Shown here piece after piece: positions 1-14,539 of a stretch of 14,539 nt of DNA. The position numbers and the translations under genes are program-made. This stretch comes from an uncultured Planctomycetota bacterium. GTDB taxonomy: Bacteria; Planctomycetota; Phycisphaerae; Sedimentisphaerales; Anaerobacaceae. The notes under the pieces are model-generated. The model had not been told where the DNA came from. It saw only the letters and a list, made by a program, of their open reading frames with translations, and searched no databases. The DNA lies in assembly GCA_903927855.1 (NCBI GenBank), contig CAIYOL010000382.1, positions 1-14,539 of the forward strand. Direction: 5' to 3'. Every line of letters starts with the position of its first letter. Position 1 is the first letter of the stretch.

Positions 1-1
1 T

Positions 2-727
2 CCTGCATATCTTCTTTTTGCCGTAGTCGTCTGGCTTGGCAAGTATCTGTTCGCCATGTTTGCCGATGTCGAACGGCCGGTGACGGGCATGAGCGACTTT
101 CTCAACGTTCTCATTCGGCCGAGGTATAGCCATTGTGCAAGCTTGTGGTACATATACGTGTGCTTCATCTATTTTATGATTATTCCTGTTATGTTTAAGC
201 TTGTGAAGCAGAGAATCGAGCTCCTGCTCATTTTTGCGATGGCGCTGTATTTTGTACCGAGAACTTCGTATTTTGCCTTGGAGCAGGTTTTCGAATATAT
301 GTTTGTCTTCCTTTTGGGTGGCTATGCTGCTTGTCACATAAAGGAATATTCAGAATGGATAGATAGGTGTTCCTGTTTATTTCTGGCGATTTTTACAGGG
401 GTATTTGTGCTCGCTTTTCTGGTGAACGTGCCCAAAATAATGCTGGGATTGCTTTCTTTGCCGGCCATTCATTCGCTTGTTCGCTGGAGGATTTTTGAAA
501 GGTCGTTTTTCCTGACGACATTCGGGAAATATACCTTTCCAATTTATCTGATGAATACGATGGCAATTGGTGTACCTAGTGTGATTACGCGGAAGAATGG
601 ATTGTGGGATGGGCCTGCTTCTTTTATTGTTTTTCCGGTGCTGCTGGTAAGCGGGCTTGCTTTGCCTATTCTGGCACAGAAACTTTTCATCTCAAGGGTT
701 CCCGGCCTTAGAAGCATTATCAGGTGA
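2..727 (+). CDS. Acyltransferase 3 family membrane protein, C-terminal part (cut by window edge)
   Basis: The frame is open from the left edge (base 2) to a TGA at 725-727, giving 241 visible residues, so the true start lies outside the window. The protein is a string of hydrophobic segments with short charged loops. The piece around residues 40-70 (RPRYSHCASLWYIYV, then a long hydrophobic run) resembles the H-x-LW-(F/Y) segment of acyltransferase 3 (OafA/WecH-like) proteins, which are usually about 340-380 residues with 10 or so membrane helices. The diagnostic N-terminal H-x3-R motif would lie upstream of the window and cannot be checked. By family these enzymes move acetyl or other acyl groups onto cell-surface sugars from the inner membrane. 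Its place beside a flippase and glycosyltransferases fits decoration of the polysaccharide repeat unit. An internal ATG at 56 is not the natural start, because the frame continues upstream with the same character. Confidence 0.72.
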   Translation, partial: PAYLLFAVVVWLGKYLFAMFADVERPVTGMSDFLNVLIRPRYSHCASLWYIYVCFIYFMIIPVMFKLVKQRIELLLIFAMALYFVPRTSYFALEQVFEYMFVFLLGGYAACHIKEYSEWIDRCSCLFLAIFTGVFVLAFLVNVPKIMLGLLSLPAIHSLVRWRIFERSFFLTTFGKYTFPIYLMNTMAIGVPSVITRKNGLWDGPASFIVFPVLLVSGLALPILAQKLFISRVPGLRSIIR

Positions 728-755
728 ACCGGGAAGCAGATATTATTTGAATGTA

Positions 756-2315
756 ATGGAAGCCATAAAAACATCGATCTTGGGATTGGTCGCCCGTTTA
801 GGTGGAGGCACTCTAAAAGCCAGGTGCGCGCGCAGCAGCGTTGTTTTGGGGGTTGGAGTTTTTGCCGCCAAGTTTCTTGGATTAGCAAGCAAGGTTATCC
901 TGACCAGGCTACTGGCGCCTCAGGAGATGGGGCTGATGGTAATGATAGTGAGCCTGACAGCGTTGTTTGATGTGCTTACAGAGATAGGTGTAAAACAATC
1001 GGTTATTCAGCACACGAAGGGCGATAACCCCGAATATCTCAATATGGCTTGGTGGTTTCAAAGCCTGCGAGCAGTAGGCCTATATGTGATTGCATTTATC
1101 TTGGCACCGTGGCTCTGCGAGTTTTATTTCCGCAGCAAAGCAGAGGTGCTAAGCCGGTATTCAATGGGAGAATTGACAACTCTGATTCGGGCTGCTTTTC
1201 TTACCATACTTTTCAATGGATTCATTAGCCCAAGGGCTTACATATTGGAAAAGACATTCAGGTTTGGCAAGGTGGTATTAATAACACAGGGCGGTCTTAT
1301 TTTGGGAACCATTGTTACTATTACCTTGGCGCTAATCATAAGAAATGTCTGGGCTATCGTGATAGGATTTGCATCAATGGGATTTGCAAAATGTATTTTG
1401 TCGCATGCGATTTGCCCCTTCAGGCAGAAATTTGCTTATCACAGAGAAAGTTTTCAGGGGTTATATGGTTTTGCGAGGGGAATGTTTGGCCTGCCAATAC
1501 TTGCGTATATGGCATTCAATATAGATGTTCTGGTCGCAGGCAAAATGGTTTCAACCTATTTAGTTGGTCTGTATGGTATGGCTTTGACCCTTGCAATCTC
1601 ACCCTGGGATTTTTTTGCCGGGATAATAAGCCCTGTTCTATTGCCGGCTTTTTCTGAAAAACAGGGCGACAAAGAAGCTCTCTGCAAAGGCGCCTTGAAA
1701 ATTACTAAATATACGGGATTATTTGTGATTCCTCCGATGGCATTGGCTCTGATTTGCGGTGGCACAATATTGACTATTATTTACGGTGATAAATATTCAG
1801 CAGTTGCGGTTCCATTCGGTCTATTGTGTGTTTACGTTGTGCTTCTTATACAGGGGAGTATATTTACAAGTTTATTTTTCGGTATAGGACAACCCGGCAA
1901 AAACAGAGCTTTTGCGGTAGTTCGCTGTTTAGTATTAATATCGCTCATATATCCAGGAATAAGATTTTTTGGGCTCACTGGCGCTGCAGCAGTGATACTG
2001 CTTGCAAGTTTTATTGCGATAAGTCTGCAGCTTACTGTGATACGTAAGGCGATCGGATTGAATATCTTCGATTATGTAACCTCTTGGTTGCCCGGTGTAG
2101 CCATGGCGATCCCCGTATTAGTGATTATCGTGGTCGTTCGAGGTCTCCAGCCCCGATATCCAATGGCGTATCTAACAATCGGGATACTGTCATGTATTAT
2201 TGTTTGTCTGTCTGGTCTATTGTTGCTTAAACATTTTGAAAGGCAAAGCCGGCATTTGCCAGCAAGTGCTGTGTCAGCAGGGTTTGCAGGCAGGGAGGAT
2301 GCGAGAAGTGTCTGA
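756..2315 (+). CDS. Wzx-type oligosaccharide flippase (polysaccharide transport family)
   Basis: Predicted 519-residue polytopic membrane protein of the MOP/PST flippase superfamily, which moves lipid-linked repeat units across the inner membrane. The N-terminus is typical: a hydrophobic helix at about 28-45, then an amphipathic stretch with LTRLLAPQEMGLMVM at about 49-63 and a second helix ending in TEIGVKQSVIQ (75-85). This closely matches the family pattern of R-x-L-x-P-x-(E/D)-x-G followed by G-x-x-x-x-(L/V)-I-Q. About 12-14 hydrophobic segments follow, ending near residue 500, and the length is normal. The frame is open upstream into the acyltransferase gene to 657, but the ATG at 756 gives the shortest sensible N-terminus. 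A TTG at 747, ten bases after GGGAAG (731-736), is an alternative start. The gene starts 28 bases after the acyltransferase and overlaps the pyruvyl transferase start by 8 bases. The substrate cannot be read from the sequence. Confidence 0.88.
   Translation: MEAIKTSILGLVARLGGGTLKARCARSSVVLGVGVFAAKFLGLASKVILTRLLAPQEMGLMVMIVSLTALFDVLTEIGVKQSVIQHTKGDNPEYLNMAWWFQSLRAVGLYVIAFILAPWLCEFYFRSKAEVLSRYSMGELTTLIRAAFLTILFNGFISPRAYILEKTFRFGKVVLITQGGLILGTIVTITLALIIRNVWAIVIGFASMGFAKCILSHAICPFRQKFAYHRESFQGLYGFARGMFGLPILAYMAFNIDVLVAGKMVSTYLVGLYGMALTLAISPWDFFAGIISPVLLPAFSEKQGDKEALCKGALKITKYTGLFVIPPMALALICGGTILTIIYGDKYSAVAVPFGLLCVYVVLLIQGSIFTSLFFGIGQPGKNRAFAVVRCLVLISLIYPGIRFFGLTGAAAVILLASFIAISLQLTVIRKAIGLNIFDYVTSWLPGVAMAIPVLVIIVVVRGLQPRYPMAYLTIGILSCIIVCLSGLLLLKHFERQSRHLPASAVSAGFAGREDARSV
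2293..2298 (+). promoter_or_regulatory. Ribosome binding site deciding the GTG start at 2308
   Basis: GGGAGG lies 9 bases before GTG 2308 and directly abuts the in-frame ATG at 2299, which is too close for normal initiation. The spacing therefore favours the GTG over the ATG. The site lies inside the 3' end of the flippase gene. Confidence 0.5.
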
Positions 2316-3617
2316 AAACTCATTTGCTGTTCATAAATCAGTAAAGATAGGTTTGCTTGGGGCGGCATTGGATACGGGCAACATGGGCGTTAGCGCGCTT
2401 GCTGAATCTGCGATTAAGTGTATCCTTCAACGTTGGCCCGAGGCGGAAATAACGTTGCTGGACAGTGGCCGCGTAGTGAGGGAAGAGAAGTTGAGAATAG
2501 GCGATAAGATCCTGTGTATAAAAAAACTGCCTATTCGTCTTTGCAGAAATATATTTCTTGAGAATCATTTTATTGTGCTTTGTTTCTATGGGTTTCTATT
2601 AAGGTTATTTAATGGGGAGAGATTCAGTCATTTCTGTATTCGACGGAACGCGAGTTTGAAACACATCTTACAGCTCAATATGGTCGCAGATATTACCGGC
2701 GGCGACAGCTTCAGCGACATATATGGTATGCGCAGATTTGTACTTGGTTTTTTGCGTAAATGGCTTGTTCTGCTTTTCAATAAAGATTTGGTAATGCTGC
2801 CTCAGACTTATGGGCCGTTTAAGCGACGGTTAGCCAGGGCTATGGCTCGACACATTCTAAATCGTGCCAAATTGATTTATTCGAGAGATAAGGCGAGCAT
2901 AAAACATGTAAATGCTTTACTCGGTAAAAATAACAATGGAAAAGTCAGGTTTGCCCCCGATGTTGCTTTTATCCTGGATGCCCAAAGCCATCACATATTG
3001 ATATTGAACCATCGACAGATATACGGGCACGGGACTCGATTGTCGTTGGCCTGAATATCAGCGGACTTTTGTTCAATGGCGGCTACAATCGTAATAATAT
3101 GTTTGGCCTGAAAAGTGACTACCGTGAATTGGTATACGATGTTATTGAGATGTTCCTAAAACGTCGGAAGGTGTCCGTTTTGCTGGTTTCGCATGTGTTT
3201 CCGCCCACAAATAATGCAGTGGAAAGTGATTCCGAAGCGTGTCTTAAGATGTATGAGTGTTTCAGGAAGATATACCCAGGCAGAATATTCATGGTGAAAG
3301 GCGAGTATGATCAGGGCGAAGTAAAGTACCTAATAGGTTTATCCGACTTTTTTATTGGCTCACGGATGCATGCCTGTATCGCAGCTATCTCCCAGAGTAT
3401 CCCCGCGGTAGGAATTGCATATAGCAGAAAGTTTTACGGTGTTTTTGAAAGTATTGGGGTAGCTGATTGTGTTATTGATGCGGGAAATTATGATAAAAAG
3501 CAGGTGCTTGAAAAAATTGAGTCGATTTTTGAACGGAAGGATAAAATCCGTGAAAATCTGAATTATGCTATACCACAGGTTAAAGAATGTGTATCGGGGA
3601 TATTTTCGGAGGGATGA
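2308..3617 (+). pseudogene. Polysaccharide pyruvyl transferase, broken by a one-base frameshift
   Basis: Two adjacent reading frames make up one polysaccharide pyruvyl transferase (WcaK/CsaB-like family), an enzyme that moves pyruvate from phosphoenolpyruvate to a sugar as a ketal. The first part reads from 2308 and runs out of the family pattern after FAPDVAFILDA (residues 216-225); it would stop at 3054. The second frame continues the family sequence from about 2985 (KPSHIDIEPS, then SIVVGLNISGLLFNGGY) to 3617. Family features are present on both sides: N-terminal GLLGAALDTGNMGVSAL (15-31), ITGGDSFSDIYG (129-140), LPQTYGPF (164-171), and in the second frame GSRMHACIAAISQSIPAVG with SRKFYG. 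Adding one base at the CCCAAA run 2981-2986 restores a frame of about 436 residues, the usual size. It overlaps the flippase by 8 bases. It may be a true recent mutation or a sequencing or assembly error; the lack of other decay fits either. The start was chosen as GTG 2308 for its ribosome binding site; ATG 2299 is the alternative. Confidence 0.85.
2981..2986 (+). other. Frameshift point (CCCAAA run) in the pyruvyl transferase
   Basis: Upstream of this run the conserved protein is read in the frame of 2308. Downstream it is read one base back, with AAG CCA TCA CAT ATT GAT starting at 2985. One extra C or A here would join them as D-A-P-K-P-S-H-I-D-I. The in-frame codons at the site (GCC CAA AGC) do not form an X-XXY-YYZ slippery heptamer, so programmed -1 frameshifting is not supported. 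A one-base loss in a short homopolymer is the simplest reading. Confidence 0.75.
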
Positions 3618-3700
3618 GTTTTCTACTTCTTAGACGCTGGTATGCAAGATAGGAGTAGATTGGATAGGGCTCGGGTGAAAGCATATTAAATTATGCACAT

Positions 3701-4921
3701 ATGTTAACTGGTGAAATCGTAAAAAACCAAAAAATAATACCTTCAATTGTCTGCTTTGCCGGCTGCGACTGGTGGTACCACAACAGGGGCTTATTTGTCC
3801 CACAGGTGATGACCAGGCTGGCAAAGCATACAAAGGTATTGTTCATAAATTCTTTGGGGATGCGGGTGCCGAATCTCAAAAGTGACCAGTTCGCCCTGCG
3901 CAAGATATTGCGCAAAATCCGTAGCTCCGCCCGTTTTTTGCGAAAAGACAGTAAAAGCGGTATGTACATCTTGAGTCCTGTCTCTCTGCCTTTTTGGGGC
4001 AGTACATTTGGCCGCGTGGTCAATGCGTACTCCATCCTGGTTCAGGTGAAGCTTGCCATGCTTATCTTGCGTATACGAAATCCTATTTTCTATGTAGGTT
4101 GCCCGCCTGCCTGGGAAGTTATAAAAAAAATGAAATATAATTATCTTGTATATGAGCGAACAGATCTTTTTGAGGAAATGCCTGGTATTGACAAACCTTA
4201 TATCGCCTCTCTTGACAACGACTTGGCACGTCTGTCCAATCTGGTCCTATATGTTGACGATGCTATGTTCAAGGATGGCGCCGAGCAGAATCCTAATTCT
4301 ATTTTAATAGGTCACGGAGTTGATTTTGACTTTTTTGCGGAGACGGAAAAATCAGATTACATACCCGAAGACGTTGCGCGAATTCCGAAACCGATAATCG
4401 GCTATTTTGGCGATATTTGCGACAAGACCTTTGATTTTGACCTTATACAACACTTAGCCAGCAATCTTTCGGAAATGTCTTTCGTTTTGGTCGGGCCCTT
4501 ATCTTCAAACGTGGATGGTTTGAGAAAATTAAAAAATGTCTATATACTTGGACAAAAACCATATGAAGACATTCCCCATTACGGCAATGTATTTGATGTC
4601 TCGATTCTGCCGTGGAAAAAGAACAAGTGGGTTATGCATTCTTATCCTGTAAAGATAAAAGAATACCTAGCACTAGGAAATCCATTTGTTTCGGTGGATA
4701 TTCCTGCGGCAAGGTCTTTCGCTCATGTAACCTACATAGCATCTGACTACGATGATTGCGTGGCCAAAGTGCGCCATGCGGCAAAAGACAAGGATCTGCA
4801 AAACAGGCAAAAACGAAAAGAGAGCGTAAGGAATGAGACTTGGGACAGCAAGGTCGAACAAATACTTGAATTCATTGACAAATCAGACTATTGGAAGCAT
4901 ATATCGAGTACAAAACAATAA
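3701..4921 (+). CDS. GT-B fold glycosyltransferase (family 1/4-like)
   Basis: Predicted soluble 406-residue glycosyltransferase. The N-terminal half carries a strand-like VCFAGCDWWYHNRGLFVPQ (17-35) and VLFINSLG (46-53), a pattern seen in TuaH-like family 1 glycosyltransferases. The central region has YERTDLFEEM (151-160) and ILIGHGVDFDFF (201-212), the latter resembling the x-NGVD-x-x-x-F hinge of GT-B enzymes. The C-terminal half has PIIGYFGDI (231-239), VLVGP (262-266), VYILGQKPYEDIPHY (280-294) and KIKEYLALGNPFVSVDIP (318-335), where Glu321 sits at the donor-phosphate/ribose position of the E-x-(L/M)-A-x-G-x-P signature. It most likely adds one sugar to the lipid-linked repeat unit on the cytoplasmic face; donor and acceptor are unknown. 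It follows an 83-base gap, the longest in the window, and has no strong ribosome binding site before ATG 3701. Length is normal for the family. Confidence 0.83.
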   Translation: MLTGEIVKNQKIIPSIVCFAGCDWWYHNRGLFVPQVMTRLAKHTKVLFINSLGMRVPNLKSDQFALRKILRKIRSSARFLRKDSKSGMYILSPVSLPFWGSTFGRVVNAYSILVQVKLAMLILRIRNPIFYVGCPPAWEVIKKMKYNYLVYERTDLFEEMPGIDKPYIASLDNDLARLSNLVLYVDDAMFKDGAEQNPNSILIGHGVDFDFFAETEKSDYIPEDVARIPKPIIGYFGDICDKTFDFDLIQHLASNLSEMSFVLVGPLSSNVDGLRKLKNVYILGQKPYEDIPHYGNVFDVSILPWKKNKWVMHSYPVKIKEYLALGNPFVSVDIPAARSFAHVTYIASDYDDCVAKVRHAAKDKDLQNRQKRKESVRNETWDSKVEQILEFIDKSDYWKHISSTKQ

Positions 4922-4967
4922 CAACGGGTTTTAATCCTACTTTCCGGACTAAATCTAAACCGTTTGC

Positions 4968-4974
4968 AGGGAGA
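4968..4974 (+). promoter_or_regulatory. Ribosome binding site for the TTG start at 4984
   Basis: AGGGAGA stands 9 bases before TTG 4984 in the methyltransferase frame. No comparable site precedes the earlier possible TTG at 4891, so this site decides the start. Confidence 0.5.
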
Positions 4975-4983
4975 ATACGCATA

Positions 4984-5754
4984 TTGACGCGCCTGCTGCG
5001 TTTTGCATTAGTATCCCTGAGGCGTAGGCATTTCGATTTTTTCGCTAATGCGGTGAGTTCCATTCTTGATTTATTTGGCGCAACAGTCAAGGACGCTTTT
5101 GGGGAACGCAGCGTAGTTCATTGTAATATATGCGGCTGGACGGGCAATTCGTTTTATCGCCACACCGGTCCAGGGTATGACGAAAAGAATTCTCTTTGCC
5201 CAGGATGCTTGTGTCAGGACCGGCATAGGGCACTGCTTGTGATTCTCGAAAAATGCACAGATTTTTTCTCGCCGGGCAAAAAAATCGTGGAGGTTGCGCC
5301 GGAACGCAATCTTGAAACGCTGTATGTAAATCAGGGATTGGACTATACGAGTTTCGATATCAAACGCCGTGCGATGGAACAGGGTGATGTTACTCGTATG
5401 CGTTATTTAGATAATTCAATCGATTATTTTCTTTGTCTTCACGTACTGGAGCACGTCCCCGGCGAAAAAGAGGCTTTATGTGAAATACATCGCGTGTTGA
5501 AGCCCGGCGGCTGTGCTGTTGTTCAGGTGCCGGTCGATTGGAATCTGCCGCAAAGTTACGAGTACCCCATGGCTGACCCCAGAGACACCTTTCATGTGCG
5601 TCGCTATGGAAGAGACTTCATAAAAAGGACTAATCTACCAGGATTTGAAGTTGCCTCCAAAAGCATAAATGACTGTTTAAGCAATGAAGACATAAACCAT
5701 TTCGGATGTTCTAGAGAGCCAGTGTTTTTTCTTAAAAAGGTATCAGCGACTTAA
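4984..5754 (+). CDS. Class I SAM-dependent methyltransferase with N-terminal zinc ribbon
   Basis: Predicted 256-residue methyltransferase. After a basic N-terminal segment comes a likely zinc ribbon: Cys47-x2-Cys50 (HCNICGWTG) and Cys72-x2-Cys75 (LCPGCLCQDRHR), a pairing recurrent in a family of methyltransferases from polysaccharide clusters. The SAM domain follows: motif I is IVEVAPERNLETLY (101-114), lacking the usual GxGxG as is typical of this subgroup, then YTSFDIK (121-127), DVTRMRYLDNSIDYFLCLHVLEHV (135-158) and the IHRVLKPGGCAVVQVPVDW segment (168-186). The HVLEHV and LKPGG pieces are standard class I signatures. It probably methylates a sugar of the repeat unit, but no acceptor can be named. 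I chose TTG 4984 because AGGGAGA precedes it at good spacing, leaving 62 bases after the glycosyltransferase. The frame also reaches TTG 4891, which would overlap the upstream gene by 31 bases. Confidence 0.83.
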   Translation: MTRLLRFALVSLRRRHFDFFANAVSSILDLFGATVKDAFGERSVVHCNICGWTGNSFYRHTGPGYDEKNSLCPGCLCQDRHRALLVILEKCTDFFSPGKKIVEVAPERNLETLYVNQGLDYTSFDIKRRAMEQGDVTRMRYLDNSIDYFLCLHVLEHVPGEKEALCEIHRVLKPGGCAVVQVPVDWNLPQSYEYPMADPRDTFHVRRYGRDFIKRTNLPGFEVASKSINDCLSNEDINHFGCSREPVFFLKKVSAT

Positions 5755-5766
5755 ACCTAAAATTGT

Positions 5767-6714
5767 ATGGACTTGTCAATTATCATAGTGAGTTATAATA
5801 CACGTCAGCTTACTTTGGAGTGCTTGAGGTCTATTTTTGAACAGACGTCGGATATTGATTATGAGGTTCTTGTAGTTGATAACGATTCGAGCGATGGTTC
5901 GGCCAATGCAATCGCTGGGTATTTTTCTCAGGTGCAGTTGATAGCTTCCAAAGAAAACCATGGCTTTGCAAGGGCCAATAATCTGGCGGCACAAAACGCC
6001 AAAGGTGATTATCTGCTTCTGCTTAATCCGGATACTGTGGTCCTTAATCGAGCGATTGAAAAATTGCTCTCATTTGCACGTTCGCATCCCAAGGCGGGGA
6101 TTTGTGGGGGCCGAACGATTTTCCCGGACAGGTCTGTCAATCCTAAATGCTGCTTTGGCGAGTCAACCGCTTGGAGCTTATTTTGTCGGGCATTTGGGCT
6201 TTCAAGGATTTTTAGAAATTTCGCTTTGTTTAACCCTGAATCATACGGTTCCTGGGCATATGACACCGTTAGGCAGGTGGATATTATTACAGGGTGCTTC
6301 TTTATGGTTAAACGTGATTTGTGGGAGCAATTGGCTGGTTTCAACCCCGTATTTTTTATGTATGGTGAGGAAGTTGACTTTTGCTTGCGAGCAAGAAAGC
6401 TTGGTTACAAACCTCTTTTTACCCCGGATGCCGAAATAATCCATTACGGGGAAGCATCTGAACCTGTAAAAGAAGAACGAATTTATAAAGTGCTTTGTGC
6501 TCAAAGCACTGTGATTCGAGAACATTGGCCTGAATATAAGAGGTGGTGGGGTTTGGCTATGCTTCTTATCTGGGTAAGAGTGAAATACTTTGTATTAGCT
6601 ATTCTCAGCAGGGTTAATTCTGCGCAATTTAATTCACAGGCCATTGTATGGAACAACCTGTGGAAACGGAGAAAAGATTGGTTAAAAAGCTGGGAGGCAG
6701 TGAGGCAGCCGTGA
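5767..6714 (+). CDS. Glycosyltransferase family 2 (rhamnosyltransferase-like)
   Basis: Predicted 315-residue GT-A enzyme. It opens with LSIIIVSYNTRQLTLECLRSI (3-23), then VLVVDNDSSDGS (34-45), NHGFARANNLA (64-74) and LLLLNPDTVV (83-92), where NPD stands in the DxD metal/nucleotide position. Further on, GCFFMVKRDLWEQLAGF (176-192) and FFMYGEEVDFCLRARKLG (196-213) carry the acidic ED-x-D-type acceptor/catalytic region. This whole arrangement is that of the WbbL-like GT2 group often named rhamnosyltransferases, though sugar specificity cannot be read from motifs. A hydrophobic stretch at about 259-280 suggests membrane association near the C-terminus. It begins 12 bases after the methyltransferase, with no obvious ribosome binding site, and its TGA overlaps the next gene's GTG start in a GTGA, suggesting translational coupling. 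Confidence 0.9.
   Translation: MDLSIIIVSYNTRQLTLECLRSIFEQTSDIDYEVLVVDNDSSDGSANAIAGYFSQVQLIASKENHGFARANNLAAQNAKGDYLLLLNPDTVVLNRAIEKLLSFARSHPKAGICGGRTIFPDRSVNPKCCFGESTAWSLFCRAFGLSRIFRNFALFNPESYGSWAYDTVRQVDIITGCFFMVKRDLWEQLAGFNPVFFMYGEEVDFCLRARKLGYKPLFTPDAEIIHYGEASEPVKEERIYKVLCAQSTVIREHWPEYKRWWGLAMLLIWVRVKYFVLAILSRVNSAQFNSQAIVWNNLWKRRKDWLKSWEAVRQP
6702..6705 (+). promoter_or_regulatory. Ribosome binding site and coupled GTGA start for the heparinase-like gene
   Basis: GAGG at 6702-6705 lies 5 bases before GTG 6711, and GGGAGG at 6692-6697 is 13 bases before it. The GTG shares bases with the TGA stop (6712-6714) of the GT2 gene. Together with the protein N-terminus (see the gene entry) this favours 6711 over the in-frame ATG at 6648. 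Confidence 0.45.
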
Positions 6715-8699
6715 GTATCTTCTGGTATTATCGTCGGTTGATGGCTATGAGGCCTGGAGAAATCATCTGGCGCCTCAGACGCATGCTATGGCAGTGTGCT
6801 GCCAGAATTTTGCACAATCGATGGGAACGACAATACCAAAATAATTTCACCGATTCGGAAAATGTTATTGACAAAATTGAGTTTTACGGTCTTGCTGACA
6901 TAAAACCCGGGGATGTTCCACAGGACTGGATTAAAAGCACTATTGCTGTGGCTGAAGAGTTGTTGCAGAATCGTAGCGATTGTTTGGCCCTGCGCAGGAT
7001 TGACCTAGGCAAAGAAATCAACTGGAACCGAGAATACAAGAGGGGCATCAATACACCTTTGCAATTTGGCCCATGGATGAACTATCGAGATACTACATCC
7101 TATGGCGATTTCAAATATTTCTGGGAGTTACCCAGACTACAGCACCTGATTATCCTTTCAAAAGCTTATTATCTGACTGGCAAAGAGAAATACGCCGAGG
7201 AAACCATAAAGCAGGTTGAGAGTTTTGTCAAACAGTCCCCTTATCTTTTAGGTGTCAACTGGATAATGCCGATGGAAGCAAGCATCAGGCTGATATCTAT
7301 TAGCTGGGTGACAGCGTTTTTGAAAGAATATCTAAGACGGGATAAACGTACCTGCAGCCTAATAGAAAACATAGTCAGAACTCATGTTGACTATGTGGCA
7401 AAAAACTTTTCAGCCTACTCTTCTGCTAACAACCATTTGATTGCAGAGGCAGCCGGAGTTTTCATCGCCAGCACTTGTTTCAGCCAATTGGATAGAATGA
7501 ACAAACACAGGCGAAACACCTATGATATTCTCTGTCGAGAAATTGGGCATCAATTTTATCCAGACGGAGTAAACAAAGAACAGACAACTCATTATCATAT
7601 TGCCTGTTACGATTGCTTTCTTTTGGCTGGCCTTTTGGGGAAAAACAATGGGGTAGGTTTTCCTGCCGAGTATTGGAAGACTCTTGAAAAGGCCGCTGAT
7701 TTTGTCTGGGCATTAGCGAATAACGATAATTCGATTCCCCAGATAGGCGACAGTGATGACGGCAGAATGACTGTATTGTCAGAAACCAAAACCAGTGAGG
7801 TGCAATCACTGTTGGCAACAGCCTCGGTTTTATTCGATCGCCCTGATTTTAAAGCAACAGCAAAGTACTTCGATGAAACATCGTTCTGGCTTCTGGGCAA
7901 AAAGGGCAAATCTATGTTTGAGATGATGCTGCCCGTTAGTAAACCCAATACGGCCTCAGTAAAATTTGAGGAAGGTGGTTATTATATTCTGCATAACAAC
8001 AGAACTGTACTCGTCAAATTAATTTTTGACTGCGGGCCGTTAGGATTTGGTTCAATCGCAGCTCATGGACATGCTGACTCTCTAAGCTTTATACTTTATG
8101 CCTACGGCCTAGAATTCTTTACAGACCCAGGAACCTATACGTACATCAGTGACAGTCCTTACAGGGATTATTTCCGTTCGACTGCTGCACACAATACTAT
8201 TGTAATAGATGGGCTGAACCAGTCACAGATTGAAGGCCCTTTCTTGTGGACACAAAAGGCTGACTCGTTTGTCAAAGAGTGGGTCAGTAACGAACACTAC
8301 GATAAAGTAGCGGGCTGGCATAATGGCTATCATAGACTGCATGACCCAGTTACACATCGGCGAGTGATAAAGTTTGAAAAAAAGCAGGAAATAATAACTT
8401 TAGATGACTATCTTGAAATGAAATCCAGCCATAAAATTGAGCAATATTTCCACTTGGCACCTTCATGTGATGTGGAAAATACAAACAACAATATTTGGAA
8501 AATAACAAAAGCTGGAAGAAAGATAGAATTAATCATAGATAATAAGCTCAATTGCAGGGTATATACCGGCAGTGAAAACCCTATTTGTGGATGGTTCAGC
8601 TGCAGTTATGATCGAAAGCAACCTATTCATACTATCGTTTGCTATGGGACGTTCCGGGGTAACCAGCATTTCACTACCAATATCAGGCTGGCAGTCTAA
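6711..8699 (+). CDS. Heparinase II/III family protein (polysaccharide lyase-like)
   Basis: Predicted 662-residue protein. Residues 1-20 (MSIFWYYRRLMAMRPGEIIW) match the usual start of the heparinase-like proteins of EPS clusters, supporting GTG 6711 rather than ATG 6648. An alpha/alpha toroid covers about 60-390, with WIMPMEASIRLISISW (184-199), SANNHLIAEAAGVF (238-251; Asn241-His242) and EQTTHYHIACYDCFLL (290-305; Tyr295, His296). The C-terminal beta domain begins near 415 and contains AHGHADSLSFILYAYG (451-466), FTDPGTYTYISD (470-481) and YRDYFRSTAAHNTIVIDG (484-501), the hallmark block of heparinase II/III (PF07940). These families cleave uronate-containing polysaccharides by beta-elimination with Tyr/His residues. 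No clear signal peptide is visible at the chosen start, which is odd for an enzyme acting on exported polymer. In an EPS operon it may trim, edit or release the product, but activity is inferred. Stop at 8697-8699. Confidence 0.87.
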   Translation: MSIFWYYRRLMAMRPGEIIWRLRRMLWQCAARILHNRWERQYQNNFTDSENVIDKIEFYGLADIKPGDVPQDWIKSTIAVAEELLQNRSDCLALRRIDLGKEINWNREYKRGINTPLQFGPWMNYRDTTSYGDFKYFWELPRLQHLIILSKAYYLTGKEKYAEETIKQVESFVKQSPYLLGVNWIMPMEASIRLISISWVTAFLKEYLRRDKRTCSLIENIVRTHVDYVAKNFSAYSSANNHLIAEAAGVFIASTCFSQLDRMNKHRRNTYDILCREIGHQFYPDGVNKEQTTHYHIACYDCFLLAGLLGKNNGVGFPAEYWKTLEKAADFVWALANNDNSIPQIGDSDDGRMTVLSETKTSEVQSLLATASVLFDRPDFKATAKYFDETSFWLLGKKGKSMFEMMLPVSKPNTASVKFEEGGYYILHNNRTVLVKLIFDCGPLGFGSIAAHGHADSLSFILYAYGLEFFTDPGTYTYISDSPYRDYFRSTAAHNTIVIDGLNQSQIEGPFLWTQKADSFVKEWVSNEHYDKVAGWHNGYHRLHDPVTHRRVIKFEKKQEIITLDDYLEMKSSHKIEQYFHLAPSCDVENTNNNIWKITKAGRKIELIIDNKLNCRVYTGSENPICGWFSCSYDRKQPIHTIVCYGTFRGNQHFTTNIRLAV

Positions 8700-8716
8700 A
8701 AGTTCAAAAGGCAGAT

Positions 8717-9859
8717 ATGATTCAAGCTGCTCGTATAGTTAGCGAAAGTGTGGCTTTCTCCCAAATGATTGATTCAGTTTGTAAAACTGCAAAAGCCGGT
8801 CTATGCCGGTTCTATGAACAAAGCTCCACGGAACTGCCCTACTCCACAACGCTCAGTTCTCATAATGAATGGAAAACACATGGTATTAGTATCAGATATG
8901 CTGCGATTAGCCAGATTGGCATCGCAGAATGGCTCAAAACCCATCCTGAAGATAAAGCATACCTGCCGAACCTATGGCCCAAAATAGCAAATAACCATCA
9001 CAAAATTACAGACATTGGCGATATCGCACTTGCGCTCTGGGCAGGAGTAGTAGGTGAAAAAGACCGCTGCGAATTGTTTGCGAAAGAACTATCCACCAGT
9101 TGGCAAAGTCAGGCGAACTTATGCAATGCGGTTGAGCTTGCCTGGATTGTTCAATCCTGTACGGCAGCTTTGTCTGAGCGGAAGGCCTTAGAACTATATA
9201 TTGAGCCGATCCTGAATGAGGCAAGGAGGCGGTTACTCTCGCTCTTTCGGCCACAACACAATCTTTTCCAGAGACATAATCGTTCGGGGTTTAAGGAGGT
9301 CATAAGCAGACGCATAGCATGTTTTGCTGACCAGGTGTATCCAATTTTAGCCTTGTCAAACTACGGTTTGTTATTTAACGACAAGCAAAGCATTGAGATT
9401 GCTGCTAAAACTACTGAACAAATATGCCGCCTTCAAGGCCCTCTTGGACAATGGTGGTGGCATTATGACACCGCAAATGGAAAGGTCTGCGAGGAATACC
9501 CGGTATTTTCTGTTCATCAGGATTCAATGGTGCCTATGGCTATAATGGCCAGTGACAGGGTAACCAGCCGAAACCATACGAAAGAAATTAAAGCTGGTTT
9601 GCAATGGATTTTGGGAAATAACGAATTGAACCAGAACTTGCTTTTGGCTGAACAAGGAATCATATGGAGGGATATCGAAAAGCGTGAGCCAGCGAAGGTC
9701 TCGCGCTCTCTCAGAGCATTGCTTTGCGTTAGCGGCCTGCGCTTTTTGCACAGTTTGGCCGATAAATGCTTCATCGGTTTTTGCATTAATCGCGAATGTC
9801 GGCCTTACGAACTTGGCTGGGTCCTGTATGCGTGGGCCGATCATCGATTTAAAGAGTAA
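8717..9859 (+). CDS. Unrecognised mostly helical protein, possible alpha/alpha-toroid
   Basis: A 380-residue protein I cannot assign to a named family. It looks largely helical and soluble, without signal peptide or membrane spans. It has regularly spaced amphipathic helices, as in (alpha/alpha)6 toroid folds used by glycoside hydrolases, epimerases, polysaccharide lyases and terpenoid cyclases. The most striking stretch is LQGPLGQWWWHYD (239-251) followed by VCEEYPVFSVHQDSM (257-271). Such G-x-W-W-(W)-x-Y-D and H-Q-D clusters of aromatic and acidic residues resemble a sugar-binding or catalytic cleft. The block around ACFADQVYPILALSNYG (201-217) may form another face of the same cleft. It begins 17 bases after the heparinase-like gene with AAAAGG (8706-8711) before ATG 8717, and ends 19 bases before the WecG/TagA gene. 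The tight linkage suggests a role with the heparinase-like protein, perhaps on the same polymer. Function is not established. Confidence 0.7.
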   Translation: MIQAARIVSESVAFSQMIDSVCKTAKAGLCRFYEQSSTELPYSTTLSSHNEWKTHGISIRYAAISQIGIAEWLKTHPEDKAYLPNLWPKIANNHHKITDIGDIALALWAGVVGEKDRCELFAKELSTSWQSQANLCNAVELAWIVQSCTAALSERKALELYIEPILNEARRRLLSLFRPQHNLFQRHNRSGFKEVISRRIACFADQVYPILALSNYGLLFNDKQSIEIAAKTTEQICRLQGPLGQWWWHYDTANGKVCEEYPVFSVHQDSMVPMAIMASDRVTSRNHTKEIKAGLQWILGNNELNQNLLLAEQGIIWRDIEKREPAKVSRSLRALLCVSGLRFLHSLADKCFIGFCINRECRPYELGWVLYAWADHRFKE

Positions 9860-9878
9860 GCCGCAACTGGAACAAGAC

Positions 9879-10676
9879 ATGACTCTATCGGAAAAATGTC
9901 CTACAGTGGAACTGCTTGGCGTAAAAGTGTGTGCATTGCGTATGAGCGAGGTGTTGGACATGGCCGATGAATGCATTGCCAAAAGAAACAAGCTTCTTGT
10001 AGGAATTCTAAATGTTGCAAAGATCGTAAACGTCCGTAAGGACCCGCTCTTGCGTACCAGCCTTGATGAATCGAACATAATACTGGCCGATGGGGTGCCC
10101 ATAGTATGGCTTTCACGAATGCTGGGGGCTCCCCTGCCGGAAAGAATAGCCGGCATAGATTTAATGTACCGACTGCTGGAAAGAGCTTCTGAAAAGAACT
10201 ATGGTATCTATTTATTAGGAGCTAAACCAGAAGTTGTGGAGAAAGTGGTCGAGATTGTTAAGAATAGTTACCTCGGTTTGCGTGTGGTGGGCTACAGAAA
10301 CGGCTATTTCAAACAGCATGAAGAATACGAAGTTACCAAGAACATAAATAATAGCTCCGCAGATATCCTTTTTGTAGCAATTAGTTCACCTAAAAAAGAA
10401 GCATTTCTTGGAAGATGGCGAAGCTCTCTTAACGTCCCAATCTGCCATGGCGTCGGGGGCAGCTTCGATGTCCTTGCTGCTGTTACCAAGCGTGCTCCAC
10501 TGTGGATGCAGAAATCCGGCCTGGAGTGGTTATATAGACTCATCCAGGAGCCGCGAAGAATGTGGAAGAGATACCTTGTAACCAATATTGTGTTCATAAC
10601 GCTAAGCATTAATGCGATCATTCGAGCCAAGTTGTGCGGCTTGCGCAATGGGTCGAAGATGGATATCGCGGACTGA
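9879..10676 (+). CDS. WecG/TagA/CpsF family glycosyltransferase
   Basis: Predicted 265-residue GT26 family enzyme. Members transfer ManNAc or ManNAcA (or related sugars) from UDP to a lipid-linked GlcNAc at the inner face of the membrane. Family marks run in order: ELLGVKVCALRMSEVLDMA (11-29), ILNVAKIVNVRKDP (43-56; Asn45), IILADGVPIVWLSRMLG (67-83; Asp71), PERIAGIDLM (87-96), GIYLLGAKPEVVEK (109-122), ILFVAISSPKKEAFL (163-177) and the C-terminal HGVGGSFDVLA block (190-200) with RAPLWMQKSGLEWLYRLIQEP (205-225). The usual PKQE is PKKE here. ATG 9879 puts the start at the normal position; the frame is open upstream to 9684 inside the previous gene, but that extension is unlike the family. The next gene is a UDP-GlcNAc 2-epimerase, whose product UDP-ManNAc is the natural donor, which strengthens the assignment. 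Confidence 0.9.
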   Translation: MTLSEKCPTVELLGVKVCALRMSEVLDMADECIAKRNKLLVGILNVAKIVNVRKDPLLRTSLDESNIILADGVPIVWLSRMLGAPLPERIAGIDLMYRLLERASEKNYGIYLLGAKPEVVEKVVEIVKNSYLGLRVVGYRNGYFKQHEEYEVTKNINNSSADILFVAISSPKKEAFLGRWRSSLNVPICHGVGGSFDVLAAVTKRAPLWMQKSGLEWLYRLIQEPRRMWKRYLVTNIVFITLSINAIIRAKLCGLRNGSKMDIAD

Positions 10677-10714
10677 TGTCGAATGACTTGTTTTAACTCA
10701 TTCTTGGGATCGCA

Positions 10715-11815
10715 ATGGGAAAACCACTAAAGATTATTCATGTTGTTGGCGCTAGACCGAATTTCATCAAGATAGCAAGTATCTTAAGGGCTTGCAAGAA
10801 AACCTCGAAGATTGAATCGCTGCTTGTTCATACTGGCCAGCACTACACCGAAAATATGAGTAAAATTTTCTTTAAGGACCTTGACATCCCATTTCCCGAT
10901 ATCGATCTCGAAGTCGGTTCAGACTCCCACGCACAGCAAACCGCTGAAATCATGAAGCACTTCGAACCCGTTGTATTAGAACATAATCCTGATGCTATCC
11001 TGGTGGTAGGTGATGTAAACTCTACTATTGCCTGTGCGCTGGTGGCGGCAAAATTAGGCGTCAAAACCGTCCACGTCGAAGCAGGATTAAGAAGCTTCGA
11101 CAGAACCATGCCTGAGGAAGTAAACCGCATCCTAACCGACGCCATAAGCGACCTTCTTTTCGTTACAGAGCCAAGTGGCCTGGTCAACCTCAAGCGAGAA
11201 GGCATCGATGGAACAAAAGTCCACTTTGTTGGAAATGTGATGATAGACACGCTTGAGCTTCACAAAAAAAAAGCCAGCAACTCACGTATACTTGATGAGC
11301 TAAATCTACTGGTTGGGCAATACGTTGTCGTCACTCTACACAGACCCAGTAATGTAGACCAGCATCAAGCACTCATAAGAATACTGAACGCATTGGCTGA
11401 GATTCAAAAAGAAATAAAGATTGTCTTTCCCATCCATCCCCGAACTTATAAACAGCTCACAGCAAATAGACTCATGCAAAAAACTAAGGACTTACCGAAC
11501 ATGTTGCTCATTAAGCCTTTAGGATATCTGAATTTTTTGAAATTGATGTCTGAGTCTAAGGTGGTGATAACAGACTCCGGCGGCATCCAGGAAGAAACCA
11601 CAATCCTGGGAATACCCTGTCTCACAGTCCGCGAAAACACGGAAAGGCCCATTACAATTACTGAAGGAACAAATGTTTTAGTAGGCACGGATACTAATAG
11701 AATAGTGGGCAGCTATCGTGAAAGTTTGAACAAGGCCAGACTACACACAAGGCCAAAGTTCTGGGACGGAATAGCTTCTGAAAGGATTGTTCGAATATTA
11801 TTGAATTGCCTATAA
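10715..11815 (+). CDS. wecB: UDP-N-acetylglucosamine 2-epimerase, non-hydrolysing
   Basis: Predicted 366-residue cytoplasmic enzyme that interconverts UDP-GlcNAc and UDP-ManNAc. The N-terminal VVGARPNFIK (10-19) and VHTGQHY (38-44) are standard. Catalytic positions of the WecB family are present: Asp100 in VVGDVNST (97-104), Glu122 in VHVEAGLRSFDR (119-130), Glu134 in MPEEVNRILTD (132-142) and His209 in VTLHRPSNVD (206-215). The UDP site shows as FPIHPRT (238-244), ITDSGGIQEE (285-294) and RENTERP (306-312). Length is normal. A weak GGGA (10706-10709) precedes ATG 10715, which follows the WecG/TagA gene by 38 bases. No UDP-ManNAc dehydrogenase (WecC) lies in the window, so the immediate product is probably used as ManNAc, or the dehydrogenase is elsewhere. 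Confidence 0.95.
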   Translation: MGKPLKIIHVVGARPNFIKIASILRACKKTSKIESLLVHTGQHYTENMSKIFFKDLDIPFPDIDLEVGSDSHAQQTAEIMKHFEPVVLEHNPDAILVVGDVNSTIACALVAAKLGVKTVHVEAGLRSFDRTMPEEVNRILTDAISDLLFVTEPSGLVNLKREGIDGTKVHFVGNVMIDTLELHKKKASNSRILDELNLLVGQYVVVTLHRPSNVDQHQALIRILNALAEIQKEIKIVFPIHPRTYKQLTANRLMQKTKDLPNMLLIKPLGYLNFLKLMSESKVVITDSGGIQEETTILGIPCLTVRENTERPITITEGTNVLVGTDTNRIVGSYRESLNKARLHTRPKFWDGIASERIVRILLNCL

Positions 11816-11866
11816 TTTGCTTGGCATGATTCGCCGAAAAATGTATTGCAAAATTGGACAAATTTA

Positions 11867-13837
11867 ATGTGGAGCAAACCACCTATCAAAGCGATTATAC
11901 TCGCTGGAAGATGTGACTTTGGGCGCTGTTTCATAACATCACGAATACCCAAGGTATTATGGCCAATAGCAGGAAAACCGGCCTTAGAGCGCTTGCTGGA
12001 CCATTTGGCCAATCAAGGTATAAAGCAGGCAACAATCTGCTCCAACGGTGACAGTTCATTGCTTGAAAAATCTATTCGTATTAATCGCCTTCTGGATGTG
12101 AAATTTCTAAACGAACAGCTACCCGTTGGCACTGCTGGGTGTATCCGAGATGCTGCTGGTGATGAAAAGGATACATTACTCCTGGTATTTCCTGCCAGTA
12201 TAGTATGTCCTCCTAAAATCGATGTGTTAATAAACGCCCACTACAGCAGTCAGTCTGATTTGACTGTGGCATTTAATCCATCTTCCAACCAAGACTCATC
12301 AGTAGGTGAGTATGCAGGCATTTATGTGTGTGAAACCAGCATCTTGAAACATATCCCAGAAGAGGGCTACTTTGATATCAAGGAAGGTTTAATTCCAGAA
12401 ATGCTCCGCTCCGGGGAAACTATTCACGCGGCAACATTACCAAATCATGCAGGAAACTTTCGAAACTGGCAAGAATATCTATTTGCTATTGCCGGTTATA
12501 TCCAGACTACTCCGAAACTTGATAATGGGTTAAAATTATCAAGGTCTGACAACTCACAAGTCTTATGGACCGCAGCCAATACCGTAGTTGACTCCAGCAC
12601 TAGAATTTATGGGCAGGTAGTTATTATGGATGGTGCTCGCATTTCTAAAGGTGCGGTCATTTTCGGACCGACTATAATTGGACGCAACGTTAACATTGAC
12701 CAGAACAGTATTGTAGTGAATAGCATTCTCTGGGACGGTGCGGAAGTAGGCCCAAATTGTGAGATTCAACGATGCGTAGTTGATTACCACGCAGCCATAC
12801 GCGGTAATACCGTTGTAGAAGGGAAAGCCGTATCATTTAAGCCGAAGGGAATGTTAGGAAATGTGATCGGCAACGTGTTAAAAGTTGCGAGAGATAACAC
12901 AAGTCGATTGCAGCATGTATTGCAACCACAATTCGATAAGTTAAATGGAAAATTGCCCTACCAGCTAAAGTCGCATAAGGTTAATATTGTTCCATGGCTT
13001 GCGGCCAGCATCGTTCTAATTGCTTTTCTTTGGTCGTACTGGCCGGGAATCATAGATCTTTGGAATGTATGGCAGCGAAATGATGAATACTCCTCTGGGC
13101 TTTTAGTTCCTTTCTTGGCTATTTACATCTTATGGTCACAGCGCCACTATATTACTCAATGCCGCATAGGGCCTTCTCTTTGGGGGCTATTTGCCTTCCT
13201 GGGGGCGCAGTGCATCAGGCTGTTTGGACTGTTCTTTATGTACGGCTCGGCAGAAAGACTATCCATTGTGCTTAGTGTTGCTGCCTTGGTGTTGTTGCTA
13301 TTCGGCTGGCAATTTTTCCGAAAGGTTTCGACGGCACTATTATTCCTGTTCTTAATGTTGCCCTGGCCTAATAGGATCCAGGCTGCTTTAGCGCTGCCTC
13401 TACAACAATGGGCCACTTCATCAGCCGTGTTTTGCCTGGAGATGATAGGCTATGAAGTTGTCCGGGAAGGCAACGTCATCCATATCGGCCAGGCAAGCGT
13501 CGCAGTAGCTGAGGCCTGTAATGGCTTGAGAATGATTACCGCCTTTTTTGTGATTAACAGTTTGGTTGTTTTGTTAGTCAAACGAGAGTGGTGGGAAAAA
13601 CTGCTCGTCCTCGCTTCGAGTCTGCCCATTGCTTTACTCTGTAACACAGTGCGATTAACTATTACTGCAATTGCCTTCACAATGCTCAGCGGTGAATACT
13701 GGGAAAAAATATTTCATGATTTTGGTGGCTACGCAATGATGCCTCTGGCACTTGGTATGGTCATTCTTGAGCTTTGGTTATTGACAAAAATTACAACAGC
13801 CCCAACGGAAAAACAAATTGTATTAGCAAGTAAATAA
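11867..13837 (+). CDS. Fusion protein: sugar nucleotidyltransferase-like + left-handed beta-helix + exosortase
   Basis: A single open frame of 656 residues with two normally separate proteins. Residues 1 to about 215 resemble a sugar-1-phosphate nucleotidyltransferase (IKAIILAG 7-14, IPKVLWPIAGKPALERLLDHLANQGI 27-52, LPVGTAGCIRDA 85-96, EYAGIYV 148-154). About 238-322 shows the hexapeptide pattern of a left-handed beta-helix (STRIYGQVVIMDGARI, GPTIIGRNVNID). After a linker (about 330-372) comes an exosortase of about eight hydrophobic helices (375-640). It holds the catalytic set Cys551 in VAEACNGLRM, Arg596 in NTVRLTI and His617 in HDFGG. Exosortases are membrane transpeptidase-like enzymes that cut and sort PEP-CTERM-type surface proteins. 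The nucleotidyltransferase glycine-rich loop GGxGxR is replaced by GRCDFGR (14-20), and the metal-binding Asp region reads VFPASIVCPP (107-116), so that domain may be catalytically dead. No EpsI-type C-terminal domain is present. Start chosen at ATG 11867; TTG 11846 is seven codons upstream. The ribosome binding site is weak. Confidence 0.87.
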   Translation: MWSKPPIKAIILAGRCDFGRCFITSRIPKVLWPIAGKPALERLLDHLANQGIKQATICSNGDSSLLEKSIRINRLLDVKFLNEQLPVGTAGCIRDAAGDEKDTLLLVFPASIVCPPKIDVLINAHYSSQSDLTVAFNPSSNQDSSVGEYAGIYVCETSILKHIPEEGYFDIKEGLIPEMLRSGETIHAATLPNHAGNFRNWQEYLFAIAGYIQTTPKLDNGLKLSRSDNSQVLWTAANTVVDSSTRIYGQVVIMDGARISKGAVIFGPTIIGRNVNIDQNSIVVNSILWDGAEVGPNCEIQRCVVDYHAAIRGNTVVEGKAVSFKPKGMLGNVIGNVLKVARDNTSRLQHVLQPQFDKLNGKLPYQLKSHKVNIVPWLAASIVLIAFLWSYWPGIIDLWNVWQRNDEYSSGLLVPFLAIYILWSQRHYITQCRIGPSLWGLFAFLGAQCIRLFGLFFMYGSAERLSIVLSVAALVLLLFGWQFFRKVSTALLFLFLMLPWPNRIQAALALPLQQWATSSAVFCLEMIGYEVVREGNVIHIGQASVAVAEACNGLRMITAFFVINSLVVLLVKREWWEKLLVLASSLPIALLCNTVRLTITAIAFTMLSGEYWEKIFHDFGGYAMMPLALGMVILELWLLTKITTAPTEKQIVLASK

Positions 13838-13864
13838 CGTCCCTAATCAGTTCTAATTTTAATC

Positions 13865-13869
13865 AGAGG
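13865..13869 (+). promoter_or_regulatory. Ribosome binding site for the chain-length determinant gene
   Basis: AGAGG stands 10 bases before ATG 13880 in the 42-base gap after the exosortase fusion gene. It supports ATG 13880; the next in-frame ATG, at 13886, would be 16 bases away. Confidence 0.45.
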
Positions 13870-13879
13870 TTAAACAAAA

Positions 13880-14539
13880 ATGAATATGATAGAGAAGCAT
13901 CAATCGCAACAGTTCCCGCAGGATATTATTCCTTTTGAAGTATCTGCCGAACCAAGAGCAGATTCGTCCCCCAACTTGATTAAGCCTATTCTAAGGCGGT
14001 GGTATATAGTTTTAATAACATTTTTAGTAATTTGCGCAATCGGTATTCCAGCGATATGGCTTTTAATCAAACCTATGCAAGCTGCCATTGCAGCAATCCG
14101 GGTTGCACCGATAATTCCGAGTATTTTATACAACGACAAGGACTCTGAGGTTGTATTACCGATGTACACAAACTTTGTGAACACCCAAGCTGACCTAATT
14201 ACGAGTGACCAGGTTCTGCAAAGAGTGGCGGATGACCTCGTAGACAAAAATCTGAGGTTTTTCAAGAATCTGAGGTTTTTCAAGAATGCTACTAATCCTG
14301 TTATCAAGTTAAGAGAGGCTTTAATAAGTGGGGATATTACTGTAGCTACCGAGCGTAACAGTGAGCTCATAAAAATAACAATGAAAAGTCCAGATTCAAC
14401 AGAAGCTGCGCAAATAGTCGACGCTTTTGTCAAAGCATACATGGCTATAGAAGTTTCAAAGGAAGCGCAGGGTGGAGACCAAACGCTTTCCGTACTGGAA
14501 AATGAACACAAAGTCTTGACCGACAAGCTGGAAAGAACA
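13880..14539 (+). CDS. Wzz/PCP-type chain-length determinant, N-terminal part (cut by window edge)
   Basis: The 220 visible residues run to the right edge with no stop. The first 35 residues are polar and cytoplasmic, followed by RRWYIVLITFLVICAIGIPAIWLL (39-62), one transmembrane helix preceded by basic residues. Then comes a periplasmic domain typical of polysaccharide co-polymerases: AAIRVAP (71-77) and LPMYTNFVNTQADLITSDQVLQRVADDL (93-120), which matches the Wzz segment with F-x-x-T-(Q/E)-x-x-x-(I/L)-x-S-x-x-V-L. Later LIKITMKSPDSTEAAQIVDAFVKAYM resembles the (I/V)-x-(I/V)-S-x-x-x-x-D-P-x-x-A-A-x-I-x-N motif, and the last residues begin a likely coiled coil. Such proteins set polymer length and export. 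Whether a BY-kinase domain or a second membrane helix follows is not visible. An 18-base tandem duplication lies in the periplasmic part (14249-14284). Confidence 0.85.
   Translation, partial: MNMIEKHQSQQFPQDIIPFEVSAEPRADSSPNLIKPILRRWYIVLITFLVICAIGIPAIWLLIKPMQAAIAAIRVAPIIPSILYNDKDSEVVLPMYTNFVNTQADLITSDQVLQRVADDLVDKNLRFFKNLRFFKNATNPVIKLREALISGDITVATERNSELIKITMKSPDSTEAAQIVDAFVKAYMAIEVSKEAQGGDQTLSVLENEHKVLTDKLERT
14249..14284 (+). repeat. Perfect 18-base tandem duplication inside the chain-length determinant
   Basis: The 18-base unit AATCTGAGGTTTTTCAAG occurs twice back to back (14249-14266 and 14267-14284), followed by AAT as the start of a third copy. It is in frame and encodes NLRFFK twice (residues 124-135). 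Perfect identity at third codon positions suggests a recent slip-type duplication. It adds six residues to the predicted periplasmic domain. Confidence 0.9.

Follow-up and report, generated by a model that had tools for sequence, protein, structure and literature searches.

To our knowledge, the acceptor used by exosortases and the reason why these enzymes lie in polysaccharide loci are both open. The closest described system to the locus analysed here is the XrtA/PEP-CTERM system (Haft et al. 2006, PMC1569441); the consulted parts of that paper describe four EpsH fusions, to CAAX-protease-like domains, and report that disruption of EpsH left the polysaccharide unaffected. The gene under study (11867..13837, + strand) encodes a 656-residue fusion of an apparent pseudo-nucleotidyltransferase, a left-handed beta-helix (LbH) and an exosortase. 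It lies in an uncultured Planctomycetota bacterium (Phycisphaerae; Sedimentisphaerales; Anaerobacaceae; assembly GCA_903927855.1), and the window referred to below is the whole stretch of 14,539 nucleotides analysed (contig CAIYOL010000382.1, positions 1-14,539, forward strand). "The order" and "the class" stand for Sedimentisphaerales and Phycisphaerae, respectively. As far as the consulted parts of Haft et al. go, the locus shares with the XrtA/PEP-CTERM system an exosortase recognized at the generic cut-off, a Wzz/tyrosine kinase, a sugar-phosphate transferase and a PrsT-type tetratricopeptide repeat (TPR) protein. It differs in that the fusion reaches no named subtype cut-off, that a nucleotidyltransferase (NTase)-LbH module precedes both the exosortase and the transferase, and that the tail paired with the exosortase in the order falls under the PEP-CTERM cut-off.

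NTase-LbH assemblies with non-catalytic members are exemplified by GMPPA/GMPPB and eIF2B gamma/epsilon, and GMPPA is said, in the part of PMC11228364 consulted, to assemble with GMPPB. Here, by contrast, such a module, about 20% identical, is fused to a membrane protease-like enzyme. The best PDB profile match of the fusion family is the cyanobacterial LbH uridylyltransferase tlr0611 (8x7s; E 2.7e-33, residues 9-315), the chain of which has the GKGTR, PKP, CGD and WID motifs, whereas the fusion family lacks them almost throughout. A comparison with WbaP/PglC-type transferases concerns the operon's own transferase, in which an NTase-LbH (the first 346 residues) replaces the membrane part that is usual at that position in WbaP/WcaJ. 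No description of an NTase-LbH-exosortase fusion was found in the openly licensed literature, covered mostly through the starts of abstracts and with subscription papers and preprints outside the scope; to that extent, the suggestion of an earlier note, made from the sequence of the window, that the architecture is undescribed holds.

An exosortase fused to an NTase-LbH module

A single stop-free frame extends from ATG 11867 to the stop codon at 13835-13837 (656 codons), with Pfam domains in the order that the earlier note had proposed: NTP_transferase at residues 23-143 (E 1.7e-7), LbH_EIF2B at residues 234-322 (E 7.9e-14; 52 bits, slightly below the cut-off of 54), Hexapep_GlmU at residues 252-317, and Exosortase_EpsH at residues 385-639 (E 2.9e-59). 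An alternative in-frame start, TTG 11846, is possible; ATG 11867 aligns with the starts of many relatives. The NTase fold occupies residues 7-216 (11885..12514, + strand) and is followed on the same strand by the beta-helix with its hexapeptide repeats (residues 234-322, 12566..12832), a linker (residues 323-375, 12833..12991) and the exosortase (residues 376-656, 12992..13834). A structure model of the fusion (predicted local distance difference test score, pLDDT, 74; predicted template-modelling score, pTM, 0.43) was good for the NTase part and poor for the beta-helix (pLDDT mostly 50-65), with values of about 40 over residues 317-372. The linker appears to evolve fast, having the lowest identity of the four parts in each of six pairs of relatives compared; in the same pairs, the nonsynonymous distance (dN) of the NTase part was 0.12-0.39, with a synonymous distance (dS) of 1.0-3.0 in five pairs and not computable in one.

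With residues 1-370 as the query, 780 homologues were found, and an exosortase was present in all of the best 120 of these (120/120, Pfam and a local profile). In an order-wide search, 95/161 genomes matched at E 1e-45. Both parts were found in one frame in 73/161 genomes of the order, single-contig assemblies among them. In 68 of these, a single match covered residues 10-607 or more (in this group, G186 has a stop counted within the match and G789 is truncated by a contig end); in the other 5, two matches shared one frame. Of eight named loci, all from metagenome-assembled records, one belonged to a record titled "uncultured bacterium"; the titles of the other seven read Planctomycetota, Planctomycetes, Phycisphaerae, Phycisphaerales or Sedimentisphaerales. 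The source assembly is fragmented (417 contigs, 90% complete), which could have raised the suspicion that an assembly or sequencing error had joined two genes; the recurrence of the same layout in the 73 genomes rules this out and leaves an artefact next to no chance. Thus, the fusion is a real and widespread architecture. The earlier note would have given it up if homologues consistently had separate genes and read mapping showed a missing stop or base, or if the fusion was already a catalogued common architecture; separate genes do occur in other lineages, but within the order this exosortase is usually found fused.

Seven loci of family f19, within the class, and three of family f57, outside it, also carry the fusion. 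In the exosortase tree the fusions of the order group with those of f57 (98/99), and in the module tree, from which a length filter removed the 455-residue module of L158, the f19 modules are placed apart from those of the order. The hypothesis of two independent fusions was not retained, as a single origin was not rejected by the approximately unbiased (AU) test (p 0.213 for the module tree and 0.479 for the exosortase tree).

Variants of the architecture were also seen. On the contig that also holds L012 (G006:C211), L034 (2-4153) has an open frame of 1384 residues in which NTase-LbH and exosortase are followed by the Wzz/kinase ATPase part; it may be a longer fusion or reflect a stop lost in assembly. 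Other planctomycetes (e.g. G123:C18, G095:C20 and G107:C49) have the exosortase in frames of 630-750 residues whose NTase part is unmatched, and these may be other fusions.

Loss of catalytic residues in the NTase part

The family profile aligned over the whole module with 8x7s, GMPPB and eIF2B epsilon, and the predicted model matched the same type of NTase folds (GMPPB, MurU, HddC and GlmU). We counted conserved residues in 154 proteins (150 distinct), comprising fusions of the order (137) and of f19 (4), stand-alone modules (12) and one module joined to a transferase; 120 of these rows were the best matches of the search with residues 1-370. Neither the first nor the second metal-binding Asp was present in any protein (0/154 for each), and the GTR Arg was found in 2/154 (three rows gapped). 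These three residues are presumably required for catalysis. The PK Lys was found in 3/154, one of which is the window protein (Lys29). Gly91, in the GTAG stretch, and Asp170, in GYxDIKE, were kept in 154/154, which argues for a non-catalytic constraint on the NTase pocket.

Judged by these residues, the nucleotidyltransferase domain seems to have lost its activity. The domain assignment of the earlier note is therefore right as to the fold and wrong as to the catalytic residues, and its idea of a catalytic tie to sugar-nucleotide supply fails with the loss of the GTR Arg and both metal-binding Asp. An active enzyme supplying a sugar nucleotide to the polysaccharide machinery could still invoke the correct fold, the invariant GTAG-like Gly and the Lys29 of the window protein; with both Asp absent in 154/154 and the Arg in all but two, it is ruled out on residues and we consider it very improbable. 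The other idea in that note, a possible beta-helix oligomerisation platform, is the better reading of the two, and the sequence comparisons favour non-catalytic coupling over sugar-nucleotide supply as the likely role of the module. The module resembles GMPPA- and eIF2B-type subunits in combining NTase and LbH folds without catalytic residues, the LbH part of the model being of low confidence. It would extend the non-catalytic nucleotidyltransferases by a bacterial example that is widespread.

The hexapeptide and GlmU-type Pfam matches would also fit a beta-helix that acts as an acyltransferase, like the C-terminal domain of GlmU, and modifies a sugar, the NTase part being a dead remnant. However, this beta-helix is short (about 90 residues) and in the profile search best resembles those of GMPPB, 8x7s and eIF2B, and the NTase part retains invariant residues of its own. 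We hold this explanation improbable.

The exosortase and the PAPGA tail

The exosortase part scored well above the general cut-offs (PF09721, 201 bits for a cut-off of 25.7; TIGR02602, 147 for 105.55; TIGR04178, 56.9 for 23). Cys551 (13517..13519), Arg596 (13652..13654) and His617 (13715..13717), all on the + strand, were invariant in 55/55 aligned proteins; we take them to be the active-site residues. The exosortase is complete, as the earlier note had stated. Among the matches listed (25 of 52 families), no named subtype (XrtA, XrtB, XrtC, XrtD, XrtN, XrtT, XrtV, XrtW, cyanoexosortases) was over its cut-off, the best scores being those for XrtD (165.6 of 400), XrtW (149 of 425) and XrtA (148.5 of 208). 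Mean loop charges place the module on the inside and Cys551 outside. In the source genome the fusion is the only exosortase found, and 23 PEP-CTERM matches were over the cut-off.

Stand-alone exosortases that share about 45% identity with the fused one form a sister group (L062, L063, L065 and L066; class loci L159-L161, L164-L169, L176 and L177). In L065, a neighbouring gene encodes the tail PAPGALLLGLIGLG.

Proteins encoded just downstream of the operon share a tail, IPAPGAILLGSIGVGxVGWLRRRR, which we call PAPGA. In a first set it was present in 15/17 fusion genomes versus 2/21 others. Over the whole order (E 1e-8) it was found in 101/161 genomes, i.e. in 83/89 with the exosortase of this clade versus 18/72 without (odds ratio 41.5), and in 79/85 versus 18/72 when the four seed genomes were left out. 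The 89 are all 95 matched genomes minus G025 and G248, which have only the 45% type, and G016, G021, G227 and G331, which have only the module; for 16 of them fusion is unproven owing to contig ends or separate genes, and in G807 the module frame contains a stop. Restricting the comparison to genomes with completeness of 90% or more and contamination of 5% or less gave 37/38 versus 6/28 (hand count). These genome-level tests take no account of relatedness; of 16 mixed genera, 9 agreed with the pairing, 2 contradicted it and 5 tied (p 0.065). Of 20 contigs picked from the matches listed, one of which (G325) has an exosortase fragment only, 18 had their nearest tail 9.0-11.2 kb downstream (median 10.7 kb), and the other 2 had no tail among those matches. 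The PEP-CTERM cut-off (PF07589, 20.7) was reached by 0/5 PAPGA proteins, two of which scored 18.0 and 17.5. The proteins with this tail make up a defined candidate substrate set for the exosortase in the order.

The same-genus genome G002 has 30 PEP-CTERM matches, no fusion match at E 1e-45 and no PAPGA tail.

The operon, a second module and possible coupling

Two genes on from the fusion, outside the window, the operon encodes a polyprenyl-phosphate sugar-phosphate transferase whose N-terminal 346 residues (L060) adopt an NTase-LbH fold, the second such module and the more diverged one. This module is a candidate partner for that of the fusion. In G081 (L143) it is the transferase to which the module is joined, the one case seen among 397 class genomes searched, with hits inspected in part. 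Since the module is joined either to the exosortase or to the transferase, these two would be linked by the Rosetta-stone argument, which the consulted part of Haft et al. 2006 (PMC1569441) applies to other EpsH fusions. The covalent attachment of a polysaccharide-machinery module to the exosortase and the sister module on the transferase together point to a physical link that is directly testable.

We infer that the exosortase bears, on its cytoplasmic side, a non-catalytic NTase with a left-handed beta-helix. This module belongs regularly to a polysaccharide operon of planctomycetes. By analogy with the catalytic and non-catalytic subunits of GMPPA/GMPPB and eIF2B, the NTase-LbH modules may dock on one another or on themselves, which would keep the exosortase where the lipid-linked sugar is primed; a bound nucleotide or sugar nucleotide is perhaps the signal. 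The proteins that the exosortase processes in most relatives of the order would be surface proteins with a PAPGA-type tail. Sorting of surface proteins and assembly of polysaccharide may thus be physically coupled, and we give the proposal that docked modules hold sorting at the priming site slightly more than even credence. A more specific version, with the exosortase and transferase modules in one cytoplasmic complex, the partner's polyprenyl-linked glycan as acceptor and, as the trigger, a sugar nucleotide that the dead module senses, is speculative and decidedly unlikely.

The main rival is that the fusion of operon neighbours was incidental, the NTase-LbH acting alone in polysaccharide synthesis and the join fixing only co-expression or stoichiometry. 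The module is indeed a separate gene in 20 fetched loci, with the LbH-transferase in the fetched stretch in 18 and an exosortase in only 6 (L135, L137, L146, L158, L163 and L175; the four genes follow one another as matches in L135 and L163). Split and exosortase-less forms occur inside the order as well (L158, L053 and L054), and the linker evolves fast. Against an incidental join speak its persistence in 73/161 genomes of the order and in families f19 and f57, and the second module on the transferase. We regard this rival as rather unlikely. (A first clustering of neighbours left out genes overlapped by longer frames; the separate-gene locus maps rest on all frames.)

Several observations weigh against docked modules that couple sorting of PAPGA proteins to priming. 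The beta-helix was modelled poorly, with the whole-protein pTM at 0.43, and docking is a step that we infer by analogy. G016 and G021 keep the module and the operon without the exosortase, so that the module has an exosortase-independent role. Within the order, 18 genomes encode the tail but lack this exosortase, and 6 show the reverse. The source genome has no PAPGA tail though the fusion is the only exosortase found in it, and its tails are of the VPEPAT kind (loose pattern; 26 tails, read in part); its exosortase may serve these, or a second exosortase and PAPGA genes may lie in the missing tenth of the genome. Outside the order (E 1e-6), the pairing was not borne out: the tail was found in 3/11 fusion genomes (3/8 of f19 and 0/3 of f57) versus 9/19 without fusion, the stronger matches being among the latter. 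Because of these counts, we consider that the tail pairs with this exosortase inside the order, not with the fusion as such.

The neighbours bear out the exopolysaccharide setting proposed in the earlier note. Upstream lie a WecG/TagA/CpsF-type glycosyltransferase gene (9684..10676; PF03808, E 2.9e-63; start codon provisional) and the UDP-GlcNAc 2-epimerase gene wecB (10715..11815; TIGR00236, 344.1 bits for a cut-off of 210.15). Downstream, a Wzz/tyrosine-kinase gene (13880..14539; TIGR03017, E 2.2e-10) is truncated by the contig end and clusters with full-length genes. All are on the + strand, the fusion frame being 51 bases downstream of the wecB frame and 42 upstream of the Wzz/kinase frame. 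In related loci, the TPR protein of L043, the only one scanned, exceeded the PrsT cut-off (TIGR02917, 329.7 versus 312.2). The L040 kinase and sugar transferase were under the XrtA-type cut-offs (TIGR03018, 96.1 of 230.65; TIGR03013, 149.4 of 393.35), and the cut-off of the generic family TIGR01007 was exceeded in this locus.

At the operon end, L041, L044, L046, L047, L048 and L059 encode a protein of about 270 residues with an internal LPxxPxAxxMxLTGFxCVSLVKDR stretch; no Pfam family was found in the one protein scanned, and this protein may be related to the tails or act as a helper. The polysaccharide cluster of the window also contains a heparinase II/III-type polysaccharide lyase gene (6648-8699; PF07940, PF16889), a relative of which lies beside the same neighbours in L052. 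Between 2200 and 3617, a polysaccharide pyruvyl transferase gene looks interrupted, being split over frames 2200-3054 and 3069-3617, which match PF04230 positions 1-157 and 182-279, respectively. Finally, the Wzz gene contains at 14252-14287 a short direct repeat of about 18 bases in two copies, aaaatctgaggtttttcaagaatctgaggtttttcaagaat, encoding LRFFKNLRFFKN, seen by eye.
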